64,000 nucleotides of DNA. Source: Isoetes taiwanensis (lineage: Eukaryota; Streptophyta; Lycopodiopsida; Isoetales; Isoetaceae). Of the stretch, positions 6,061 to 64,000 are shown in pieces (position 1 is the stretch's first letter; each line of letters opens with the position of its first letter). The notes beneath the pieces were generated by a model. It made no database searches. It was not told where the DNA came from and worked only from the letters and a program-made list of their open reading frames with translations. Made by a program: the position numbers and the translations under genes. The stretch is from positions 921,996-985,995 of the forward strand of contig JAJEKV010000071.1 of the NCBI GenBank assembly GCA_021234155.1. The letters run 5' to 3'.

Positions 6061-8200
6061 CCATGCACATACAAGAAAGTCATGTTCGTATCTTTATTTT
6101 ATTGCCAACTAGAAATTCAAAATTCAAAAGAACTCAGTTAATAACATAGAGTATCACCATTTCTATTTCTTCTAGATGAAAGTTACAATAATTTGATTGT
6201 CTTTCAGCATTTCAAGCTTTACAATTTACTTTTGAAATAACTAATACAACCTACTTTTTTTCTTGCAAAAGCTCCATCAAAAGCTTTAACTAGGCAAAGA
6301 AGGTCAAGTAGACCTGCCAGTACAGATTCTTAGTTTCTTTTCTTAACTCTAACATCTCCTAACAATAGCTTTAGTAGACATTTGATATTTCATCTTCAAC
6401 TATAGAAATATTGACAAGCATTACTCTGATATTACTTTTAGAGTTTCACCCTTCTAGAAACCTTCCTACTATAGAAAGCTTCTTCTACGACCACAAAATT
6501 CCATTATCATCTGTATGAACTACAATCGGATTGCTCGCTGCTCAAGCATGCTCAGTTAACATCTTCACTTTGATATTCGCACTCTTCTTTCTGCCCTCTT
6601 GTTAGAGTAGGTAAATGACTAACTTGGAAATGCATCTAATGTCTTAGAATAGATACATATTACCCCTTTAGAAGAGAGGGTCAAGATGTAAGCACTCAAC
6701 TCTCTATATGCAGGTGCCCATTTGCCTAATCCACCACGATATACATGAGTTGGAAACCTTAGAAGAAATTGTTCAGCAACTCATTAGGGAAAGTAATTCC
6801 TTGCTGCCCATTCATGAGACCAGAATTTCAAGCTGTTGCTGCTTGGGCATGCTAATGATCCCCAATACTTGTTCAACTCTGGCCTCATGCCTCTGATCTG
6901 CACACAAATTTTCACCCTGCTTAAGTATGAGACTCTGTAGTTTCCTTGAAACCAACGAACCCGTAACCAAAAAACAAAAACTAAGTTAGACCTTTGAAAC
7001 ATCAAATGATTCGTGTGCCTCGTGAATTCATCGGATAGGTGCCATCGTTGAAGTTTGGCTAGAGACCATGAATGGAAAAATCGCTGCCGGCTTGCCTGTT
7101 GAGGGATAACAAGCAGTTCTCGGTTTGTCACGCAAGAAGCTCGTGCCAACGCAATGAATAAACTTAGTTTTTCTACACTTAGTAGCATTGAACTTACTAA
7201 CACAAAGCATTCCCATACAGGTTTTTGAAGACAGCACATTCCCATACAGCATTAAAATTTGCTATAACAATAGAGAAAGCTTTCCAAACAGATTCAGACA
7301 ATCAATTTCCTTTTGTGCTCACCTGTACAACAAAGTAGAAGAAATCGAAGCCCCCAGAGTGGGATTTAATAGAAGATTGAGGAGAATTATGGTTATGGTG
7401 GGACTTGGCCTGCACCATAAGAACTTGGCATACAACAATGCATATTGACGCAATGCTTGCCCTCTTCATCGCCATCCCCGCTCGATAACTTTTAGCTTGC
7501 TCGCCATAGACTCTGGCTCAGAATAAATATCATTTGTAGATGTTGCTTTTCCATGAACCCACTAAGGCATCTTCTTTCTCTTCAACTTCATCAAAATATC
7601 AAGGCTCTACTAACCATTTCTCTCAGATAATGGAGCTCTTCTCCATAAGTTCTGTAACGTAACCAACTCCAGTTGTTAGATTACTTTGTGATTCTAAATG
7701 GCATTCATTTTTGTAATATCAAACTTGAAACGTTGCATGCGACTGACAAAGATGGGAGCAAGGGTGTGTACAAGAGCAAGGATAGACAAGAGCGTACAAA
7801 AGCAAAGAGCGAAGTAGATATAATTAACATCATCTACTATATTCATTTGAACTTTAAGAAGACTAAATATTCCAGATCAGGACAACGTGATATTTTAGCA
7901 AATTGGCGAGTTCCATCTTTCTTCACAAATACCACGAAAACGACCGAAAATCTAATATGCCTAGATATTCCAGGTCGGGTGACCTTACAGGACATTTATG
8001 AAGTTGATAAGTAGGAGATATCAGTTATGAAGGGATACTGAGATCAGTCAGAATTGAATAATAAGAATGAGAGCAGTGTAAGAATAGCAAGATTAAAAGC
8101 AAAGATCATCTTTTATTTAATTGAGTGTAGACATCATATGTCCTATAAATTAAGTGCAGAAATACTTCAAAGCTCAATAGTTTTATGCATAAAGATAAAA
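6061..8200. other. Interior of LTR element, no gene seen
   Basis: About 2.1 kb of AT-rich sequence between the TTAGAGTC tract and the next exon-like pieces. Several short open frames occur on both strands at 6.7-7.4 kb and 7.67-8.01 kb, but none has a recognisable motif, splice sites or codon pattern. Confidence 0.4.
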
Positions 8201-18015: not shown

Positions 18016-18020
18016 GAAAA

Positions 18021-18589
18021 TGTTGTGAATCATGTCATGATGTTATGCAAGCAAAGGTTCAATGGTGGAGACTTGGTTAGAACCTAACTGACATCATAAG
18101 GTTAATTGATTAAGCTTATTTCTATGGTTCAATGGTTAACCAAAGGGGTTACGAGAGTTAAAGGGACCAAATCGACATCTAATGGTATAAGGCCTAGCAA
18201 GATTATTTCTAAGTTTATCTTGTAATTTGGCCTCCAATATTCGAACCCGACATAGCGTGAATCCCGATCGGTCTGCTAGGCAAAGCGGATCTTTGAGATT
18301 TACATACAGATAATTAAAAGTGTGGTCGGCATCACCATGCTGAATCCGATCAAAATAAAGATGTAAGGTTGCAGATATTTCGTTGATACTAGAGTCAAAG
18401 GGTGAAGCGATTAGCGAGGGTCAATCGCCTTTACTCACGATACTTTTTATAATGGTTCTCATAATATTTGGCGATGGTTCATGTTTTGTTTAAGTCTGCT
18501 GGCAAGTATTAAATCTAGTTAAAAGTTTAACTAGTTGAACATTGTTCTAAAGGCATTATGATCTACAAACAAGTGATTATTTCACTTCA
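18021..18589 (+). repeat. 5' LTR of the copia element
   Basis: 569 bp, TG...CA. Compared with the 3' LTR (554 bp) it has many single-base and short indel differences, for example around 18240-18310 and 18400-18450. The insertion is therefore not recent, or one copy suffers from assembly errors. Confidence 0.92.
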
Positions 18590-31224: not shown

Positions 31225-32068
31225 GGGAATTCGAAGCTCAACGAGTCCGGGATCATTGTCAATGGATTCCAACGGTTCCGTCACGTCGAGGAGAATGCGA
31301 ATGAAAATCCGAGCAAGACACGCTCCACCGCCGGAAAAGAACCTGAAAAGTTAATGATCCCGCATTTGGATCCCCGATGAACCGGAAATATGGTCGAGCC
31401 AAACTCCAATGGGGGATCCGGTGGTCCCACCAAGCTTGTAATATTTGACGTCAATGGAGTATTAGCTGCGGTATACCACGACAAAGACGCCCCGAGATTA
31501 ACACCTCGCGGATCCCGGTGAAAGCGAGCATAAAATAGTGTATCCCGAGGCCCGAGCTAAGGAAATTATTGAATGGTGCCTGGCACGGGGATTCGAAGTG
31601 GCCATATGGTCTTGTATGGCAAAGAAAAATATTGTCAATGTTCTTGGTGTTCTCGGCATTTCAGTTTTGAAGTTCAAGTTCGTTTGGGGAAACGAAAGGG
31701 TCGAGCATGTGAAGGACCTCGATCCAGCCATCACAAAGGGGAAGCCTATAATGGTGAAAAGGCTGGACAGTGTTTATGAGCAATTCCAGGACTTTGGCAA
31801 ACACAACACGCTGATCATAGACGACTCCGCCTACAAGTGCTATCATAACGCGCAAAATACAATCATTGCTAAGCCATATCGACCGAAGAATATGAGGCAG
31901 ATAGGTGGTTGTCCTTAGGACTCATCCCGTCTTGGCGGAATCCTCTTTGCCATTCTTGTCGCCGATGTGCTTACTACGAACTATCCGAACCTCACGGAAC
32001 CCGATCTGGAGAGCAAGCCGATCATGAAAGCTATGGACGACAAATACTTTGGTGAACAAGAAGAGTGA
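31225..32068 (+). CDS. FCP1/NLI-interacting-factor-like HAD phosphatase domain
   Basis: Proteins of this family are HAD-fold phosphatases, many acting on phosphoserine in the RNA polymerase II tail, others diverged. The exon begins after TTTCAG at 31224. HAD motif I reads KLVIFDVNGVLAAVY (Asp codon at 31447; the DxNGxL form is seen in plant members in place of DxDxT). After one frameshift near 31515 the domain continues: YPEARAKEIIEWCLARGFEV, AIWSCMAKKN (motif II region), FKFVWGNERVEHVKDLDP, the lysine segment ITKGKPIMVKRL, then TLIIDDSAYKCYHN (motif III) and NTIIAKPYRPKNM. A TAG at about 31917 and one phase change separate the C-terminal piece GGILFAILVADVLTTNYPNL...MDDKYFGEQEE, which ends in TGA at 32066. 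Key residues are present, lesions are few, and the family call is secure; the function in this context is unknown. Confidence 0.8.
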
Positions 32069-36589: not shown

Positions 36590-37609
36590 CCCATCATGTT
36601 CACCTTTTCTATGGTTTGATGCAAAGAAGTTCCACATCATGTTGACCTCTCAGATCACAACCGCCTTCCAACAAAATAAAATGGTCCGGATGGTTTGAAT
36701 TGTGATGCAGCACCATCGGAAAATACATGTCTTTGTTTGGGGACATTGCCTTTCGCTTTAAAGTACTCAAAATGTTTCATAAAACAATGTTGAACAGAAA
36801 GTGTGTCATGTTCCCTATCATCTGACACATAGTAGTGTGTTTCCTTCTCAATGGCGTCTGTCCGTGGATCAACCTAATAGGTTATTTGAACAAATATAGT
36901 TATCTGGTTGTTGACCAAATAGCATGGGTGAACTTCATTCTCGCTCCTTAAAAGTATAATTCTCTGCGAAGTCAACCACGGATAGGTAAGCATCTCCAGG
37001 CAAGTTATCAAGGAGTTCTTTGTATTGGCCTGCCTGCCACTTATATCTAAAGTTGTGTAAAGGAAATTTTGGAAGCTTCTCCAACATTTTGTTCACCAGT
37101 GGAAGACTTGCAGTTTCATTGTGTTGGTGAACAAGCTTAGACTTCTTGCTGCCATCTCTGAATTCAGTTTTTTCATAGTCTAGGTATTCCCACTTCACCA
37201 TGCCACTATCACTAGATTGTTCATGTGGGCAGATAGAAAACTTCTTAATCCCACACTCTTCACACTTACCCAGAATGCATTCCTTCTTATGGTAAGGTTG
37301 GAAGCTAGTTTTCTCACATAAAGTTCCCTGCCACAGACTTCTTGTGCTACTTATTTTGTATTCAGACGCCTTGCATTCACCATATATGTCTGACCTGCAA
37401 AGTTGACAAGTGCAGCTGCAGCTGTTTGGGTGCTTAGTTCTCATACTATTGAAGCCATCTATTAGCATCTGCATTCTAACATAGTATATACAGCAGCAAC
37501 TATTGAAGTCCTTTAATTTTACAATAAACCATGGTTTCAGCTTTTCAAACATCCTCTGTTTGATCATAACACTAGGATGATCCGTCTTGAATTTCCTGAA
37601 CAATTGCAA
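36590..37609 (-). pseudogene. DDE-transposase-like core with DFAENY and SDGAASQFK motifs
   Basis: Minus strand from 37609: a cysteine-rich region with CSCTCQLC and CILGKCEECGIKKFSIC (zinc-binding), then VKWEYLDYE, FPLHNFRYKWQAGQYKELLD and YLSVVDFAENYTFKERENEV. The frame runs on past 36935 through HPCYLVNNQITIFVQITY to a TAG, then HYYVSDDREHDTLSVQHCF and HVFSDGAASQFK. It shifts phase and ends with MWNFFASNHRKGEHDGKAAE near 36590. The D of DFAENY, the D of SDGAASQ and an acidic or lysine residue after the HxKGxxDG block would form an RNase H-like DDE site. I know similar proteins as uncharacterised multi-copy ORFs in invertebrates and seed-free plants; calling it a transposase is inference. At least one stop and one frameshift break it. 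Confidence 0.65.
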
Positions 37610-37671
37610 TTACAAGGAAGATAACAAGGTGATCAGCATATATTACATAATTTATTGTACACTACATTTTC

Positions 37672-38130
37672 CACCACACTAGGCACCACATAGCATATAT
37701 TACAGCATTTATTTACACCACGTTATTCACCACACTAGGCACCACATAGCATATATTACAGACATTCATCTTACACCTCGTTATTCACCACACTAGGCAC
37801 CACAAAGCATATATTATATAATTTATTGTACACCATAATTTTCACCACACTAGGCACCACATAGCATATATTACAGCATTTATTTTACACCATGTTATTC
37901 ACCACACTAGGCACCACAAAGCATATATTTACAGCATTTATTTTACACCATATTTTTCATCACACTAGGCACCACATAACATATATTACAGCATGTATTT
38001 TACACCATGTTATTCACCACACTAGGCACCATAAAGCATATATTTACAGCATTTATTTTACACCACGTGCTTCACCACACTAGGCACCACATATCATATA
38101 TCACAGCATTAATAGGCACCACATACCACA
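37672..38130. repeat. 57-bp tandem array inside an intron
   Basis: Eight units start with CACCACACTAGGCACCACA at 37672, 37728, 37786, 37843, 37900, 37958, 38015 and 38073, a period of 56-58 bp. The rest of each unit is AGCATATATTACAGCATTTA and TTTTACACCATGTTATT with small changes. Each unit holds two or three TCACCAC/CACCACA words, the complement of the TGTGGTGA words in the flanks. The array lies between two coding segments of the DFAENY gene, so it is intronic. Confidence 0.9.
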
Positions 38131-42363: not shown

Positions 42364-42373
42364 TGAAGGAGGA
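42364..42373 (+). promoter_or_regulatory. Polypurine tract of the copia element
   Basis: TGAAGGAGGA lies directly before the TG of the 3' LTR, the expected position for plus-strand priming. Confidence 0.7.
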
Positions 42374-42927
42374 TGTTGTGAATCATGTCATGATGTTATG
42401 CAAGCAAGGTTCAATGGTGGATACTTGGTTAGAACCTAACGACATCATAAGGTTAAATGATTAAGCTTATTTCTATGGTTCAATGGTTAACCAAAGGGTT
42501 AACGAGTTAAAGGGCCAAATCGACATCTAATGGTATAAGGCCTGGCAAGATTATTTCTAAGTTTATCTTGTAAGTTGGCCTCGAATATTTCGAGCCAGCA
42601 TAACTGTGAATCCGATCGGTCCTGCTAGACCGACGGATCTCTGAGTTTTTATACAGTAATTAAAGTGTGGTCCGGCATCACCTGTGCTGGATCCGATCAA
42701 AATAAAGATGTAAGGTTGCAGATATTTCGTTGATACTAGAGTCAAAGGGTGAACAGTAGCAGGGTCAATCCCATTGCTACAGTACTTTTATAATGGTTCT
42801 CATAATATTTGACGATGGTTCATGTTTTGTTTAAGTCTGCTTAAGTATTAAATCTAGTTAAAAGTTTAACTAGTTGAACATTGTTCTAAGGCATTATGAT
42901 CTACTAACAAGTGATTATTTCACTTCA
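42374..42927 (+). repeat. 3' LTR of the copia element
   Basis: 554 bp, TG...CA, collinear with 18021-18589. It is followed by GAAAA, the right copy of the target duplication. Confidence 0.92.
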
Positions 42928-45688: not shown

Positions 45689-46040
45689 TGTTTAGATTCT
45701 TGGCATACACCCTGCAACAGCAGTCCATGACTGCCGGATGCTACAAAGCTGCCATGCTCAGGATCACAAAACAAGAACAAGAGAAAGAAAAATGTACAAA
45801 GAATGAAGGAAACTTGAGCTAATGAGGCTCTCCAAATTTGAGATAAAACCTGAGTACATCTGAAGAGGCTCCGGTCTAATATAGTGTAGACCGCAAATCT
45901 GAGCCGTACATCTAACTAAATCTAATCCCTACACTTATGTTAACCTAATCATGCCAAGTGTCAGTCTGCCACCACTGACACCTAACATGTGCATGCATCT
46001 AACATGTGCATGCACAATGTTAACCACTAGGTGGTTAACA
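45689..46040 (-). repeat. 3' LTR of the young element
   Basis: 352 bp. On the minus strand it begins TGTTAACCACCTAGTGGTTA, a perfect palindrome around CTAG at the LTR tip. Inside are CATGTGCATGCA words repeated twice. Confidence 0.95.
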
Positions 46041-46056
46041 CTGCCTCCCCCTAAAA
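46041..46056 (-). promoter_or_regulatory. Polypurine tract of the young element
   Basis: Complement reads TTTTAGGGGGAGGCAG directly before the TG of the 3' LTR. Confidence 0.8.
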
Positions 46057-48308: not shown

Positions 48309-48660
48309 TGTTTGGATTCTTGGCATACACCCTGCAACAGCAGTCCATGACTGCCGGATGCTACAAAGCTGCCATGCTCAGGATCACAAAACAAGAACAA
48401 GAGAAAGAAAAATGTACAAAGAATGAAGGAAACTTGAGCTAATGAGGCTCTCCAAATTTGAGATAAAACCTGAGTACATCTGAAGAGGCTCCGGTCTAAT
48501 ATAGTGTAGACCGCAAATCTGAGCCGTACATCTAACTAAATCTAATCCCTACACTTATGTTAACCTAATCATGCCAAGTGTCAGTCTGCCACCACTGACA
48601 CCTAACATGTGCATGCATCTAACATGTGCATGCACAATGTTAACCACTAGGTGGTTAACA
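48309..48660 (-). repeat. 5' LTR of the young element
   Basis: 352 bp, essentially the same sequence as 45689-46040. The plus-strand frame 48125-48442 that crosses its edge is not a gene. Confidence 0.95.
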
Positions 48661-48665
48661 CATTG

Positions 48666-56543: not shown

Positions 56544-57050
56544 TCAGTTATGTGCAAAAGTGTGAGGAGTGATGAAGGAGGGATCCAGAACGTCATCATG
56601 TTCATTTATGCCATCCTCATCTCCTTCACTTCTTTCACTGTCACTCGAGGAAGTGCTTGAGTTGTCTTCCTCATCACTATCAACAGATGGTGAAGCATTG
56701 CCACCACCACTCCCTTCTTCATCCTCTTCCTCGTAATTACAAGCCTTTTTAAGCAAATTAACAGTTTTTTGGCGCAGACGATTGTCTGATTTCAATTTGA
56801 AATCATAGCATAATATAGTCACATCATTCAAGTTCAGCTCATCCCTACAACCCACTTTCTTAGACTTCCTCCCTTTTCCTTGACTTCTCATTTCTAATTC
56901 ATACCTACCTTCAAAAGCATTTTCTGAATGTGTCACCAGCCAGTGAATCTTGAGTTTAGTTACTAAGCCTTCCTCCTTGATTGTATCAAGAACTTTTGCT
57001 GTCCAAAAGGGTCGACCTTTGTCATCTTCCTCAGTTGGAAGAGCAATCAA
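56544..57050 (-). CDS. DUF7869 gene, C-terminal exon
   Basis: A 168-codon minus-strand frame: PTEEDDKGRPFWTAKVLDTI, then VTKLKIHWLVTHSENAFEGR and, after a basic patch, a long acidic/serine tail (DSDEEDNSSTSSSDSERSEG) before the stop at 56544. The W..H/W pattern resembles a chromatin-reader-like beta-barrel, but I cannot name it. It lies downstream of the DUF7869 core on the same strand. Confidence 0.5.
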   Translation of the reverse strand: MIALPTEEDDKGRPFWTAKVLDTIKEEGLVTKLKIHWLVTHSENAFEGRYELEMRSQGKGRKSKKVGCRDELNLNDVTILCYDFKLKSDNRLRQKTVNLLKKACNYEEEDEEGSGGGNASPSVDSDEEDNSSTSSSDSERSEGDEDGINEHDDVLDPSFITPHTFAHN

Positions 57051-57228
57051 GATACCTTTGGCAATTTCGTGATATTGCCTTGAGGCTCATTCCTACGCCT
57101 TGGTCCAAGGTACATGACTCTGGGTCCTCGCCTTCCTCTCAAGCATAAAGGTGCTATTGTAGCATTGCTTGGACTGTTTGGTTCTGGGGTTGATAGAAGG
57201 TATCAGGCCATTGAAACGGTTCTTGCAA

Positions 57229-57682: not shown

Positions 57683-58295
57683 TCAATGACTCGAACTAAA
57701 AGCTTTCTTCCTTCTAAGGCGCACAGAAAATCTGCTGAACATCTGGTCAATCTGATCATGGGTGTGCCCTACAAGTAAAAATTCGAGCTTTACTTTTCTG
57801 AAGATCCTTAGCTCCACTAGCATAGCACAATAAGCAAAGAGTGTTTGATTCTTGTTCTCTCTTGTAGTGTTGTCAAGTTGCAAGTAGAGCACAGGTGGTA
57901 GTTGCTCTTGCTCGCACAGGACCTTATTAAGGATTGTAATTGTCAGGTTTGGGTCAACATGCAAGTTTGGATACATCAAAAATACTTTGCACTTTAGACT
58001 TCCTTTAAAGACCATGGCTCCTACAAGGTGGACGTTAACAAAACATTCCTCTGGCACATCTTTTGGAATATTTAGGAAATGGGGTAGAGTTGTCTTTTTT
58101 TTAATACAAAAATGGCCTTTTGGAAAGCAGTGGACGTTAGAGAGCTTTTTTCGTGGTTTGGCGAGCTTTTCTTCTCTCACTTTGGTTGTTGTTCACGATG
58201 TCTGACAAGATTCTGTTGCACAATCTCTGTAAAAGAAATCAGGTTAAAATTTTTTCTTCAAAGCAAGTGATAGGATGGAGGACATGAGCTTACTT
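57683..58295 (-). CDS. DUF7869 domain (RNase H-like, transposase-like)
   Basis: The exon follows a TTTTACAG acceptor near 58239 and, from 58180, is open for 165 codons. It reads CFVNVHLVGAMVFKGSLKCK, PNLTITILNKVLCEQEQLPP, then the block VLYLQLDNTTRENKNQTLFA and YCAMLVELRIFRKVKLEFLL, VGHTHDQIDQMFSRFSVRLR. The QLDN...ENKN and GHTHDQID blocks define DUF7869 in eukaryotic multi-copy genes. Acidic residues in both would suit a two-metal nuclease fold, so a DDE-like transposase is plausible but unproven. The upstream intron has a GAA|GTAAGC donor. A phase change near 58190 suggests one indel. This copy is less broken than the 22-kb copy. Confidence 0.75.
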
Positions 58296-58299
58296 CTTT

Positions 58300-59177
58300 C
58301 GACCTCTGTCTTTGCAGTTTCTCGTTGACTTTTTAATTCTGCACCGGAATTTTCACAAGGCCAAATTCACTTTTCCACAGTCTGGTGAAGTGTGAGTAAG
58401 AGATGTGCTGAAACTGAATGCATGTCTCTTTGTATTCTTTGAAGACGTCTTTTTTTGTAATATTGTCTTGAGATGATACATGTTGCTATTAGGCAACTTC
58501 TCACATGTCTCTCTAAAATATTTCTCCATCCATGTAACAGCAGCCAGGGCATGCATAGTTACAACTCTTCTTGGTCCACAGTGATCATCAATTGCTGGGT
58601 TTTTGTCCAGTCTTTTGTGTATTCGAGACATTCTTGTGGACCCTAGACGGTGGACAACCATGAAGCATTTTTGACAGACTTGTTCACAGTTAATGTAGTG
58701 CAAGAAGGTGTTGCGGTCTGGTCTTACACGATAAGCTAAGTAGGCATTCTGGTCTGCCAATGTCATTGAATTGTAGTTGTCTCTAACTGCTCGTAGTTTG
58801 GCCATGTTAAATCTGTTGATGCAACCCAATGAGCAGCATTTAGTTCTCAGGAGTCTTCTCATTTTGTGTTTATCCATAAGGTTTCTTCTTCTTACAGAGG
58901 AGCATGCTCTCAAACCAAAATCCACCTTGAATTTCTTTGAAGATTGGCTGGAGAACATGTAATCTCCTTGTTCCTCGTTGGTGTCATCATCTTCTGATGA
59001 AACTTCTACTCTAGGGGTAACCTCCTCTGTCCTAAGTGGTGTATTTGTAGAGGAAAACAGACCCCGTGAAGTTGTTCCTGGAAAAGGCGGTAGTACAGTG
59101 TTAAAGGATGGTGGATGGCCCATAAGAGGTTGTAGCATCAGCTGTTCTTGTACCGCCTTGAAAAGGAGTTCTTGCAA
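58300..59177 (-). CDS. DUF7869 gene, N-terminal exon with zinc-binding cysteines
   Basis: A 274-codon minus-strand frame (59177-58353) starting MQELLFKAVQEQLMLQPL. It holds an acidic segment (SSEDDDTNEEQGDY), the cysteine cluster LRTKCCSLGCINRF, a tyrosine-rich helix (DQNAYLAYRVRPDRNTFLHY), INCEQVCQKCFMVVHRLGST (a second Cys pair before a GxS turn) and ALAAVTWMEKYFRETCEKLP. This cysteine arrangement ahead of a DUF7869 domain is the usual layout. The frame stops at 58353 shortly before the intron donor at about 58295, again a small phase fault. Divergent from the methyltransferase gene, with about 1.2 kb between. Confidence 0.65.
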
Positions 59178-59361
59178 ACATCTCCTTTAGAGCGGACTGG
59201 AATTATGCAAATCCATGTGTCACAACCGTTGTGTGAAGAGGAGTACATGCTGCAGCTTCGTCCTCATTTGTAGTGAAGTCCTGGTGAGAGAAATTGTAGT
59301 AAATCTCACGCCTTCTCGTGGTTTTCTACGTGGTTCCTTGTATGTTTGCAACGAAGGGGGC

Positions 59362-59787: not shown

Positions 59788-60352
59788 TTATTCGAATACA
59801 AGCCCACCAAGTACAAGTAGAAGTTCCCCTGAATAATTAAGTGAAAGGCAAACTAAAAGCTATTCGAATATACCGAAAGGTAATCAGAAGGCTAAATGTA
59901 TTCCACTTCACATAGAAAACGAAAGCAAGACCTAAATGGATACATTTAAAAGGAAGTTTTGGCGCCTTCGGGCCATGCAGATTCCGGGCCTCGAGCTCGT
60001 CGCCAGCCAAAGACTCGAATATAATATTCGTAGAGATCAGATTCGATCCACATAGAGAAGACATGGACATGTGAGCAACAAAGTACAACGTACAATCATT
60101 TTTAGTTTGTTTCTTATTTCGAATACATTTTCGCAAGTGGAAGGCAAAAGTGTATTCGGAATACACTTTGGCTTACACCAAAGCCAAAGTGTATTCCGAA
60201 TACATTTTGACCGACGCGACCAAGCCAAAGTGTATTCCTGAAGGAAGTAAAAGTGTATTCCCTAATACACTTTTTATTTATGTCACCAAAGTTTATTCCG
60301 AATACACTTTCGCTTTTAGGCGAAGGCTTAAAGTGTATTCTAATACACTTTC
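59788..60352. repeat. Palindrome cluster 1 (TATTC/GAATA family), divergent promoter region
   Basis: Arms AAAGTGTATTC and GAATACACTTT with a 1-nt spacer occur at 60147-60169 (perfect). Near-perfect copies lie at 60186-60208 and 60288-60310, decayed ones at 60249-60272 and 60330-60352, and a half site at 60227. Shorter copies with no spacer (TATTCGAATA) lie at 59789-59798 and 59861-59870. The cluster lies between the divergent DUF7869 and methyltransferase genes. Such sites could be protein-binding operators, transposon subterminal sites or cruciform-forming repeats. Confidence 0.9.
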
Positions 60353-60592
60353 GTGACTTTAGGTTTTAAAAGGATAATTCTTTCAATTTTTTCGTGAATT
60401 TTTAGGCTTTTTTTTTTCGCTTTTTAGACTTGTTTGGGCCTGTTTTTTTTTGTCAAGGGCGCGTTGTTGTTTTGGCCTTTTTGTCCTCTTTTTATACTCT
60501 TTTTATCATTTGTTTAAGACATTTTGTATTCTGGAATAGTTTTATGCCAATGTTTTCACTAAAAAGGTCGTGTTTATACACATTGTGTACAG

Positions 60593-61130
60593 GCAGGAAG
60601 GCAGCAAGAAACATCACAAGAAGACCATCAAACTCTCTCAGAAACCGCACCCACAAAGAAGGGTTGGTGATACTGCTGCACCTGGGATTTACGAGAACTT
60701 TCAAACTCAGTGGTTCTTCACAAGGTACAAATTGGAAAGTACAAAGACCTTTACTTTCTTACATGTCCGCTCTGAGTCCTGGTGCAAAAAGGTACGATGA
60801 CAGAGAATTTGTCTGCATGGGCACCATACAAGCTGTGAATGAAGTAGCTGGGGAGTCGGGACAACGAGGGAGACTATCTTTTGCGACATCCCAAGGTTTC
60901 ATTCATGTTGATGAAGCCTTTTTTAGATTGGTCAAAGTAAACCCACCGGCACTTTACAAGTATGTTTCTCACTATATCAACAAGAGATCGCTCAGCGCCA
61001 TAATCAACGACGCTAGAAGCACACAAAGCTTTAAGACTTAGCCCACGCCGAAGTCGAAAGGTGGGGAAGAGGAAGAGCAAGTGAGCCCATCAGGGAGTCC
61101 ATCAGGTTCTCGCGAGCCCATCGTGGAGTC
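60593..61130 (+). CDS. ParB/methyltransferase gene, first recognised exon (unassigned domain)
   Basis: The segment follows GTGTACAG (acceptor, 60592). Two phases look coding: one gives GIYENFQTQWFFTRYKLEST then LHVRSESWCKK up to about 60795. The other, open to 61041, gives YDDREFVCMGTIQAVNEVAG, RLSFATSQGFIHVDEAFFRL and YKYVSHYINKRSLSAIINDA. After a TAG at 61039 the sequence runs on as TPKSKGGEEEEQVSPSGSPS in the same phase. The simplest reading is one long exon with a few indels. I do not recognise the domain; a basic head and a compact alpha/beta body are visible. Start codon not determined. Confidence 0.5.
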
Positions 61131-61138
61131 CATCGGAA

Positions 61139-61915
61139 ATGGAAGAGCAGCCACCATCACCACCGCCAAAGAAGCAGAGAGGCAAACCAGTAGTCGCTAA
61201 AGAGCCTAAAAAAAGGAAAATGGCTTTAATTGCAACAGAAGATGCTCCTGAGGAAGCACCCAAGAAGAAGAAGGGGAAGGGCAAAGCACCTGGTTTTGCC
61301 ATTAAAGAGAACAAGGTTGATAAAACATCAGAGAAAATGGAAGAGATTAACCTGCACAAGTTTGTGCAAGGTGTCATTTATTTGCCAGTCACATCAATGA
61401 AGCTTCCTCCAAAAAATGAAGCTGGAGAACGACCATTGCAGGTTCGAAAGATATATGCAGATCATCTAAGGAACCTCAAGGACAGAATTCGGAGCAATCC
61501 AAACGCCCATGTTGCTCCTATTGTTGTTCTTGTTGATAGAGAGCAGTGCAAAACTCCTGCAGAGTACGATAGAGAAAATGCAGACACATATGCGCATTAT
61601 GTTTTGGGTGGGAACCACAGCTTCAAGGCAAGGAGACAATTATACAAAGAAAAAAACAATTTAGGTAATTTGTCCATTTCTCAGGCAGCCTATTGTGGTT
61701 TGACCGAGGAAGAAGCCAAAATCGCTTGCCAACACTCATAAGGTCGACAACGCAGTATGGGTTAAAATGAGCTTAAATCCAACAAAATTAGATTTATGCA
61801 CAAAGAATATGTCATATTCAAGGAAAAGTACCGGAGAGGATTTAAAAAGCCACAAGATTCCTTTGAACTTAAAGAAGCTTTGTGCCATTGAGTGTTGCCT
61901 TTAACACGACGAGGC
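61139..61915 (+). CDS. ParB-like domain segment
   Basis: From an ATG at 61139: a proline- and lysine-rich head with likely nuclear-localisation sequence (PPKKQRGKP, EPKKRK, KKKKGKGK). A ParB/sulfiredoxin-fold-like module follows: RPLQVRKIYADHLRNLKDRI, VAPIVVLVD and YAHYVLGGNHSFKARRQLYK. The GGNHSFKA block corresponds to the GxxR/H-type active or nucleotide-binding segment of ParB-N domains fused to bacterial and phage DNA methyltransferases. The frame stops at 61739. Shifting one phase at about 61728 continues with HKVDNAVWVKM... for some 60 codons, as expected for the ParB tail, so one indel is likely. Confidence 0.65.
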
Positions 61916-61976
61916 TTAACAAAACCAAGCGCCACTCATTGGTCATGACAACCGGTTTCAATTTTACGTCAAACCG

Positions 61977-61988
61977 TATTCCAGAATA
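61977..61988. repeat. Intronic palindrome TATTCCAGAATA
   Basis: A single copy of the 12-bp palindrome core with 2-nt spacer lies in the intron before the exon at 62035. Confidence 0.85.
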
Positions 61989-62034
61989 AGATTTAGTGTA
62001 CAACTAGCTTCTGAGTTTCTTATTTTGTTTGCAG

Positions 62035-62264
62035 ATCTGGGAGCTTCAAAATGAAATATTTAATATGTTTGAGCGTGGTGAGCTAAAAAGTAAGGACAAG
62101 GTCTCGGAGAAGAAGAAAGGCACCAACGTGCCAAAGAAAGAAATGACTATCACTGTCTGGAGGGAGATTCAGGGGTTTACTGACACAGAGTTACTAGAAC
62201 GGCTTCTGCAGAAGGTGGTGGACAAGGAGTTCACACTTGAAGAAATGTCAAAGGAGTTGCACAA
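62035..62264 (+). CDS. ParB/methyltransferase gene, helical linker exon
   Basis: Bounded by a TTTGTTTGCAG acceptor (AG at 62033-62034) and a CAA|GTAAGC donor at 62265. It reads WELQNEIFNMFERGELKSKD, a lysine-rich loop, MTITVWREIQGFTDTELLER and KVVDKEFTLEEMSKELHK. Helical and charged. Similar helical stretches lie between ParB-like and catalytic parts in fused enzymes. Clean splice sites on both sides argue for a real, spliced gene. Confidence 0.65.
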
Positions 62265-62371
62265 GTAAGCATTACCATCATTGCTGCCTTTTCACTTGTA
62301 AAATTCTACAACTACCTCAAGATAACAAAGAACGGTACTCCTCAAAATGCTTTCTCACCCTCGAGGGATCG

Positions 62372-62612
62372 AAAGTGTATTCCAGAATACACCTTCACAC
62401 TTCCTGTAGTGTAAAAGTGTATTCCAGAATACACTTTCGATCCTTTGAGTCAGCGAAAAACGTATTCTGGAATACACACTCTAACTTGTTGCGTTGTAGA
62501 AGTGTATTCCGGAATACACTTTCGCTCCTTCTCTGCAGTTAAAGTGTATTCTGGAATACACTGCTGCAACAACAAAAAAGTTGTCTAAGGCACTTGTATT
62601 CTAGAATAAGTG
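62372..62612. repeat. Palindrome cluster 2 (AAAGTGTATTC-nn-GAATACACTTT)
   Basis: Six copies in one intron, all with a 2-nt spacer: 62372-62395 (CA), 62414-62437 (CA, perfect 11-bp arms), 62461-62480 (TG, left arm shortened), 62499-62522 (CG), 62541-62562 (TG) and 62591-62612 (TA, changed outer arms). Flanking words TTCG(A/C)TCCTT and GTTGT also recur. The core TTCnnGAA is also the dyad bound by heat-shock factors, an alternative reading. Confidence 0.92.
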
Positions 62613-62726
62613 TACGTGGCAAGAAGATACTTTACTTTACGTTTTCACTTTTCAACTGCTAAAACGGTTGTGGTTTTCTTTCAAGCCAAAAAAATGTTAT
62701 CACCTGCCAGACATGTCTGATGGAGC

Positions 62727-62816
62727 AACTTAACGTGGGAGAGGTGCAAGGAGCTTTATCCCATAGCTTCATCCGACGAGCGTATTGTTCAGTACGCTCC
62801 AAATTTTGAAGGATGG
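62727..62816 (+). CDS. ParB/methyltransferase gene, small exon
   Basis: An open segment reading LTWERCKELYPIASSDERIV followed by QYAPNFEGW ends at TGG|GTATGC. A possible acceptor (GATGGAG) precedes it. It joins in phase to the next exon. Short, but the frame looks like protein; boundaries are uncertain. Confidence 0.45.
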
Positions 62817-62878
62817 GTATGCTGACTAAACACGTCATACTTAACTTGTCTCTATCTCAATCTCCCCTTTGTTTGCAG

Positions 62879-63307
62879 AACAAGAAGAAAAATAAGGACC
62901 TGCCAGAAGGTTTCATGCACCTCGTGAGACTGGCATGAGAAGAAAGAACACTGGCAGATAGGAGGACTCTAGAAGTGGAGCCTTCTGATTATGAAACGTT
63001 TAGTTTGTACGACCAAAATAATCCACGGGGACTGCACTAAACTGGTTGGAACAGTAAAGCCACAGGATTTTACACTGGTCATAGCGGACCTTCCTTATGG
63101 CTTTAAACTAAAGGACAGCCGTTACGACGATCAGCCTTTTAAAAATTCAGAGTTTAACGCTTTCGTCGACGACATCAAACAAGTCATAACGGCCAAGCAC
63201 TGGCGTCTTGTCGTGTTTCATTCGAGCATGCAATCCGGCCTTGTGGAGTCCACATTCAAAAATCATTTCGGATCCCCAGTGCAAGCTGGTTATGAGAATT
63301 TGGTTTG
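62879..63307 (+). CDS. Beta-class DNA methyltransferase, motif IV half
   Basis: After GTTTGCAG (62878) the segment reads NKKKNKDLPEGFMHLVRLA, then breaks phase (TGA at 62937). From 62991 it is open: KRLVCTTKIIHGDCTKL, DFTLVIADLPYGFKLKDSRY, NAFVDDIKQVITAKHWRLVV and NHFGSPVQAGYENLVW, ending at the donor TTTG|GTGAGT (63308). ADLPYG is the catalytic motif IV (DPPY/SPPY class; DLPY is an accepted variant) and IIHGDC is the strand before it. Motif IV ahead of motif I means the beta class of N4-cytosine/N6-adenine methyltransferases (N6_N4_Mtase family). An aspartate at the first position leans to N6-adenine, but the family does not separate cleanly on this. Confidence 0.85.
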
Positions 63308-63315
63308 GTGAGTAC

Positions 63316-63375
63316 TTATACTGGAATACGTTGGGCTTCTTTCTTCTTTCTGTTTTAGTTTTCTATTCCAGAATA
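63316..63375. repeat. Intronic palindrome copies in the methyltransferase intron
   Basis: TATTCCAGAATA at 63364-63375 and a half-decayed TATACTGGAATA at about 63317-63328 lie inside the 143-bp intron (63308-63450). Confidence 0.85.
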
Positions 63376-63450
63376 TGATTGCCTTTTACTTGTTCTCTTT
63401 GTTTGTTTCTTGTTCTGTTTCCGTTAGTGACATGACTCTAATTTCTACAG

Positions 63451-64000
63451 GTACAAAACAAATATAAACTACCATGGCGGCGGGCCGAGGTTGCCGAGTA
63501 AGGTTGAATACCTCCATCTTGCTTACTGGAGTTTCGATGGCAAACGCACCATGGAGCATTTTAACACAGCAGCATGCCATAAGTTTTCTAATGTTTTGGA
63601 ATTTCCAGTTGTGCTTCAAAAGCTACAAGACCCTAGTGCACAAGGTAGAATTGTTAATCACTACCAGAAGCCTCAAAAGCTAATCAACCATCTCCTAGAC
63701 ATGTTTTCACGTCCAGGAGATTGGGTGCTTGGTGCCTTCTCTGGCTCTGGTACAACAATAGCTTGTGCACTTAAGAAGGCCCGGAATTGTGTAGCAGTGG
63801 ACATTGATAAAGAAGCTGTGCAATTCATCAAGATGAGACTGGAAGCCTTGCCTACCCTACCAGATGAGCACCAAGAGTTAGGCGCCAGATCCTCATCCGA
63901 TTTTGCCAAGCTGACCTCTTCTGAGATACAGCCTCCATTCACTAGCTCTTTAGAGGATGAAGCTACTTTTGCAGAGATGAAAGAAGTGGCACTAGCTACC
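63451..64000 (+). CDS. Beta-class DNA methyltransferase, motif I half (runs off the window)
   Basis: Acceptor ATTTCTACAG at 63450; the codon for Trp is split across the intron. The frame is open for more than 180 codons to the window end. It reads YKTNINYHGGGPRLPSKVEY, LHLAYWSFDGKRTMEHFNTA, RIVNHYQKPQKLINHLLDMF (motif X), then SRPGDWVLGAFSGSGTTIAC (motif I, FxGxGTT, the AdoMet loop) and ALKKARNCVAVDIDKEAVQF (the acidic VDID that binds the ribose), followed by a Ser/Glu-rich tail. H-x-x-x-KP in motif X is typical of beta-class enzymes, which use it to enclose AdoMet. All AdoMet-binding residues are present, so this half looks functional. The stop codon is beyond 64000. Confidence 0.9.

Follow-up and report, generated by a model that had tools for sequence, protein, structure and literature searches.

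A probable two-gene DNA transposon, now decayed, with a ParB-like/methyltransferase fusion gene and palindrome arrays in Isoetes taiwanensis

The stretch of Isoetes taiwanensis DNA analysed here (the window, 64,000 nucleotides of contig JAJEKV010000071.1) carries two divergent genes towards its right end, a gene with a DUF7869 domain on the minus strand and, on the plus strand, a gene whose product joins a ParB-like part, a middle region and a DNA methyltransferase (MTase), here called the ParB-MTase gene (Table 1). They lie in a segment that stretches from about 56.5 kb past 64 kb and is most likely a decayed copy of a two-gene plant DNA transposon. The region 59.5–64 kb was read in all frames, and the motifs lie where an earlier reading made from the letters alone (the sequence-only reading) had placed them, namely YVLGGNHSFKA in the exon frame 61085–61738, ADLPYG in 62879–63307, and GAFSGSGTT and VDID in 63451–64000; the exon at 62728–62816 was absent from its list. 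The exon candidate at 60593–61041 gave no tblastn match at E<=1 to the seven related loci described below.

The last exon (63452–64000) matches the Pfam profile PF01555, N6_N4_Mtase, with 54.9 bits (E 1.5e-14, curated cut-off 26.7), as the sequence-only reading had expected, and the exon with motif IV gave no PF01555 match in Pfam when taken alone. When the two exons are joined they align to phage and plasmid MTases over 87–98% length with 20.7–28.0% identity, these being the best-covered among the matches listed. The motif IV exon (ADLPYG) stands N-terminal to the motif I exon (FSGSGTT), which is the beta-class order. By homology the window gene can thus be securely assigned to the beta-class amino-MTases, and the product of intact copies may write N4-methylcytosine (4mC) or N6-methyladenine (6mA). 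Over the motif-I half the closest solved structures are CcrM (1.4e-06), MboIIA and RsrI, and differences from the CcrM/RsrI-type bacterial enzymes are the low identity, given above, to the phage and plasmid enzymes and motif IV, which reads DLPY or DIPY here and not DPPY. The catalytic tetrad is usually (D/N/S)PPY, commonly DPPY. With the MTase core as query nine public proteins were found (P0002–P0010); P0003 scores 59.5 bits with PF01555, and P0002–P0006 are short proteins, 67–89% identical, that each span one MTase exon only. The tetrad is DLPY in the window and P0005, and DIPY in P0006 and all seven related loci. The full-length conceptual protein matched no public protein, and the ParB-like part as a protein query found no public homologue.

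A scan of genome contigs with the motif-IV exon alignment (A3) gave seven loci (L025–L031), all in one metagenome bin, and a scan with the motif-I exons gave none. The loci lie on contigs CAKZGI010000142, 204, 294, 358, 433, 437 and 447, filed as a Trichormus metagenome-assembled genome (a GTDB metagenome bin), Trichormus being a name in use for the cyanobiont of Azolla. Since the genes on these contigs have GT-AG introns and the bin carries this label, the contigs are probably Azolla fern DNA binned with the cyanobacterium, and they are called the Azolla loci below. The bin itself is probably contaminated with fern DNA.

The ParB-like and middle region is present in all seven Azolla loci with 32–33% identity to the window, and so is the motif-IV exon; the motif-I exon is found in five, and the contigs of L030 and L031 stop short of it. 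Among the copies, the ParB-like and middle region is 85–91% identical in protein and 73–80% in DNA over the same codons. The ratio of nonsynonymous to synonymous substitution rates is 0–0.08 in 17 pairs of the 72 compared over five gene parts; in the remaining 55, synonymous sites are saturated and give no computable synonymous rate. Broken copies occur as well, with two stops in the ParB region of L028, one stop in the MT4b part of L027 and one in the N-terminal part of the L027 DUF7869 gene.

As in the window, a DUF7869 gene lies divergently upstream of the ParB-MTase gene, on the opposite strand, in five of the seven loci, and over the domain exon these homologues are 51–60% identical; the two loci where it is not visible, L026 and L028, have little or no upstream DNA on the contig. 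In L027 a pair of 34-nt inverted repeats (506–539 and 6516–6549, 94% complementary), separated by about 6.0 kb, encloses both genes. A match to the right-hand one, with 6–8 mismatches of 34, is seen in L025, L026, L028 and L029 as well, and this repeat is thus found in all five loci whose contigs continue beyond the MTase gene; L030 and L031 end earlier. Because of the DUF7869 pairing, the inverted repeats of L027 and the recurrent right-hand repeat, the ParB-MTase gene is most likely an accessory gene of a DNA transposon, a conclusion well supported through the relatives. The DUF7869 protein is probably the transposase; DUF7869 was not mentioned in the open-licence literature searched. Carriage by a transposon beside the DUF7869 gene, at first a guess from proximity, is thus borne out by the same divergent pairing in five loci, one of them within inverted repeats. 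No inverted repeats like those of the Azolla loci were seen in the window, which lacks the right end of the element.

Genes for ParB-like proteins and for N4/N6 MTases are known from viruses, and the element might accordingly be integrated DNA of a giant virus or of a virophage-like agent; this is highly improbable, as viral contigs scanned with MTase queries and with DUF7869 gave no relative, and the 6 kb element of L027 is mostly filled by its two genes between the inverted repeats. The same scans leave the phage or viral donor proposed by the sequence-only reading without support. Phage and plasmid searches returned distant MTases only, with no ParB part in eight phage proteins by Pfam, nor by eye in the first 200 residues of seven plasmid MTase proteins.

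The intron 63308/63450 is found at the same place, with the same split Trp codon (before KTN), in all five Azolla loci that span this part; the donor at 62265 matches the Azolla donor after LSK (LHK in the window) in the five loci listed. These two splice positions of the earlier reading therefore recur in relatives, and its acceptor at 62034 is seen in the window sequence only, the Azolla loci having no intron there; they have an extra intron inside motif I. The PF01555 match and the shared introns uphold its view that a beta-class MTase of bacterial type is encoded here by a eukaryotic gene with introns. The window is plant-like also elsewhere, with Copia open reading frames (ORFs; RVT_2, rve) and an F-box ORF that also matches an FBD-associated leucine-rich repeat. 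Bacterial contamination of the window, which would have come without introns, is very unlikely because of the introns shared with the relatives, the plant-type F-box ORF and the Copia ORFs.

Introns and strong conservation would also suit a domesticated host MTase gene of the sort known from bdelloid rotifers and Marchantia, one that is merely near a transposon in the window, and domestication of an N6_N4 MTase in bdelloids is described in the available text of PMC8885841. We regard this as quite improbable, given the seven divergent copies in one bin, their repeated DUF7869 linkage, the inverted repeats and the broken copies.

The window copy is most likely dead, to judge from its lesions. 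TGA stands at 62936–62938 where P0005 and P0006 carry Arg, a frame-changing deletion near 63019 has removed about four residues relative to the same proteins, and the reading frame shifts twice within the ParB-like exon, once at about 61735 and once at about 61770. The Asp of motif I is Gly in the window and Asp in all four aligned relatives (P0002, P0003, P0004 and P0007), and the DUF7869 gene appears by eye to have frame breaks too. It is unlikely that these breaks are assembly errors in an intact and active gene. Three of the five lesions in the ParB-MTase gene are frame changes, typical of some long-read assemblies, and the spliced frames are still recognisable; assembly error could account for such changes, but not easily for the TGA and the motif-I Gly, which are substitutions, nor do the roughly four residues gone near 63019 and the breaks of the DUF7869 gene favour it. 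Since the copy is broken, a functional enzyme at this locus, which the sequence-only reading had considered possible, is unsupported.

Besides the two genes, the element is marked by short palindromes. The window has 14 copies of TATTC(N0-2)GAATA, whereas 0.25 would be expected from 100 shuffles, none of which gave more than 3; all copies fall within 59789–63375 and none in a modelled exon, six being intergenic and eight intronic. The six centres of the main cluster, from 62378 to 62597, are 42, 43, 42, 42 and 50 bp apart. The Azolla loci have another palindrome, GTCGAT[GA]C-N0-4-G[CT]ATCGAC, with a centre of 3 nt in 33 of 34 copies and of 4 nt in one copy of L029. Allowing at most one mismatch per arm there are 15 copies in L030, 10 in L031, five in L025, three in L029 and one, at the contig edge, in L028, all upstream of the ParB-MTase frame and, in loci with both genes, in the stretch that separates them. 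Exact copies number 8 in L030 and 10 in L031, where sets of 200 Markov sequences contain 0.055 and 0.14 on average. The centres are spaced by 50–52 bp throughout L031, by alternately 31 and 50 bp in L025, and by 52, 51, 52, 54, 50, 51, 51, 50, 51, 51, 43, 50, 63 and 72 bp in L030, where 11 of the 14 steps fall within 50–54 bp. The commonest spacings are thus near five and four helical turns, and the arms are constant with a variable centre, as expected of dimer-binding sites. The sequence GTCGATGCNNNGCATCGAC may be a binding site of the Azolla ParB-MTase protein.

Most of the Azolla arms (GTCGAT[GA]C; L030 1884–2643, L031 2092–2572) include TCGA. This is a known methylation target, and it could be what the MTase modifies.

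The arrays are putative self-recognition sites. The fusion protein would dimerise through its ParB-like part on the palindrome array of its own element, whose spacing is close to whole helical turns, and would methylate the transposon DNA as 4mC or 6mA. The mark might label the element as self, for example so that the divergent promoter stays open or so that the element's own transposase is guided or limited. The complete reading, a decayed two-gene plant transposon with DUF7869 as its probable transposase and a ParB-like/middle/MTase fusion that would target its own element through the palindromes, is the one we favour, with moderate confidence. Targeting through the palindromes, the most interesting part of it, is by itself less likely than not, and so is the reading that the system would resemble a plasmid centromere, the ParB-like MTase reading phased, element-specific palindromes and writing 4mC or 6mA there, with protein and palindrome changing together between lineages.

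The ParB-like part carries GGNHSFKARR in the window, GGSHSAEARR in six Azolla loci and GGSHSAELRR in the seventh, and its likeness to ParB was judged by eye. The ParB/sulfiredoxin-like domain has a GxxRxxA-like motif following a strand, and kinship to ParB is plausible from the shape of the motif. Weak hints came from the PHROG 'ParB-like partition protein' (E 0.13, one of six members) and from DUF6551 (E 0.076 over the GGSH motif, one of five).

Several observations weigh against the favoured reading. The ParB-like part had no significant match in Pfam, PHROGs, NCBIfam, PDB sequences or phage tblastn, so the domain named by the sequence-only reading was not borne out by a significant match in any library searched. 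In hhalign against 81 plasmid proteins, a weak test with single-sequence templates, RepB ranked 21st and ParB 66th, the top match being an unrelated sigma-region-4 protein with 26% probability. A single-sequence AlphaFold model of this part reached a predicted local distance difference test (pLDDT) score of 40.9 and is unusable, and the DUF7869 model, with pLDDT 35.5, is too poor for a fold search. A target-site duplication was not recognised at L027, the sole locus with both ends. No palindrome was found in L026, whose contig starts at the gene, or in L027, with its short intergenic stretch. None of the seven Azolla loci has the window palindrome, nor has the window the Azolla palindrome; the site is therefore not conserved in sequence. 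Finally, eight of the 14 window palindromes lie in introns and not between the genes.

The arrays may instead be operators or enhancer sites for another protein, be it the DUF7869 transposase or one of the host's transcription factors, with the MTase acting elsewhere. This is a possibility to be taken seriously, if short of probable, as binding to internal repeats is common among transposases, the Azolla arrays occupy the region of the divergent promoter, and it is by location alone that the arrays are tied to the ParB-like part. The intronic position of most window copies, which lie within the MTase gene, speaks against operators too, and the arrays are central, away from the inverted repeats, which the sites of end-binding transposases usually adjoin.

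Table 1. Features of the two-gene element and its palindromes in the window (MTase, methyltransferase; the Azolla assignment of the loci is probable).
Feature	Position	Strand	Evidence
DUF7869 gene, C-terminal exon	56547..57086	-	40% identity to L027, E 1e-22; 1/7 loci
DUF7869 domain exon of the partner gene (transposase candidate)	57686..58192	-	PF25273, 147.6 bits, E 4.1e-43
DUF7869 gene, N-terminal exon	58356..59186	-	26–30% identity to 5/7 Azolla loci, E 6e-14 to 3e-17
Palindromes TATTC(N0-2)GAATA, 6 copies, divergent intergenic region	59789..60538	.	
ParB-MTase gene, probable N-terminal exon(s), tentative	60593..61041	+	Open frame; likeness to Azolla N-terminal ORF by eye
ParB-like exon, GGNHSFKARR motif	61085..61890	+	7/7 Azolla loci match, E 7e-35 to 2e-39, 32–33% identity
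Intronic palindromes TATTC(N0-2)GAATA, 7 copies	61977..62608	.	
Middle exon (IWELQ...SKELHK), acceptor 62034, donor 62265	62035..62264	+	Azolla matches as for ParB-like exon; Azolla exon end and GT coincide
Small exon (TWERCKELYPIASSDERIVQY..W), donor 62817	62728..62816	+	L025 counterpart NWEKVQEQYPITSS..FRDW; 5' edge approximate
MTase exon with motif IV (IADLPYGF)	62879..63307	+	P0005 75%, P0006 66% identity downstream of break; 7/7 Azolla loci
Palindrome in last intron, 1 copy	63364..63375	.	
MTase exon with motif I (FSGSGTT), runs off window end	63451..64000	+	PF01555; alignment of relatives

In the rest of the window there is a weak integrase match near 55 kb. A direct repeat of 353 nt (45689–46041 and 48309–48661, 99.7% identity) perhaps marks the ends of a very young long terminal repeat (LTR) element, and repeats with 91% identity (18020–18589 and 42373–42927), near the Copia ORFs at 19.3–21.4 kb and 40.7–41.2 kb, are possibly LTRs. 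At 37635–38110 there is a tandem array with a unit of 57 nt (8.3 copies, 86% matches), and beside it on the minus strand (36938–37609) a Cys-rich ORF of 224 residues with no convincing Pfam match, which possibly belongs to another unclassified mobile element. An ORF for an NLI-interacting-factor-like phosphatase is located at 31502–31915 (25.0 bits, cut-off 21.8).

A transposon gene of this kind has been described in the available passages of PMC12477816, where Sola1-1_Ec32, a 21.5 kb transposon of the brown alga Ectocarpus, encodes a ParB-like and N4/N6 MTase protein of 1104 residues on the strand opposite the transposase, similar proteins are cited from green and red algae, and such proteins are suggested to bind and modify their own transposon. 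The kind is therefore already known, and the novelty claimed by the sequence-only reading was over-estimated. The element described here shares with Sola1-1_Ec32 the two-part protein, its strand opposite to the partner gene and its place inside a DNA transposon; compared by description only, it differs in its plant host, its DUF7869 partner, its size of about 6 kb (L027) and its palindrome arrays, which those passages of PMC12477816 do not mention. What is new is thus the plant host, the partner and the arrays. In the open-licence literature on ferns, ParB and transposons, 'ParB' was absent among the matches listed.

The N4CMT of bdelloid rotifers, as far as PMC8885841 was available, is likewise a PF01555 enzyme of a bacterial beta subtype, with introns, in a eukaryote, but it has a C-terminal chromodomain and is a host gene acting against transposons, whereas the window protein has an N-terminal ParB-like part and is borne by a transposon. 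DIRS elements and retrotransposons of charophytes and dinoflagellates carry their own DNA methyltransferase too, according to the passages available of PMC5890265; theirs are C5 or Dam-like enzymes, and here a DNA transposon carries a beta-class amino-MTase.

The finding extends ParB-MTase transposon genes from algae to a probable vascular plant. If the proposed self-recognition is true, ferns or their relatives would have mobile elements that label themselves with a non-canonical DNA mark, with a target sequence that could be read straight from the DNA, and element families would be able to distinguish their own copies both from those of other families and from host silencing marks. The arrays are a defined candidate site for binding tests in vitro and for long-read methylation tests in Azolla, and they make it a testable question whether transposons deposit their own bacterial-type methylation, and why.

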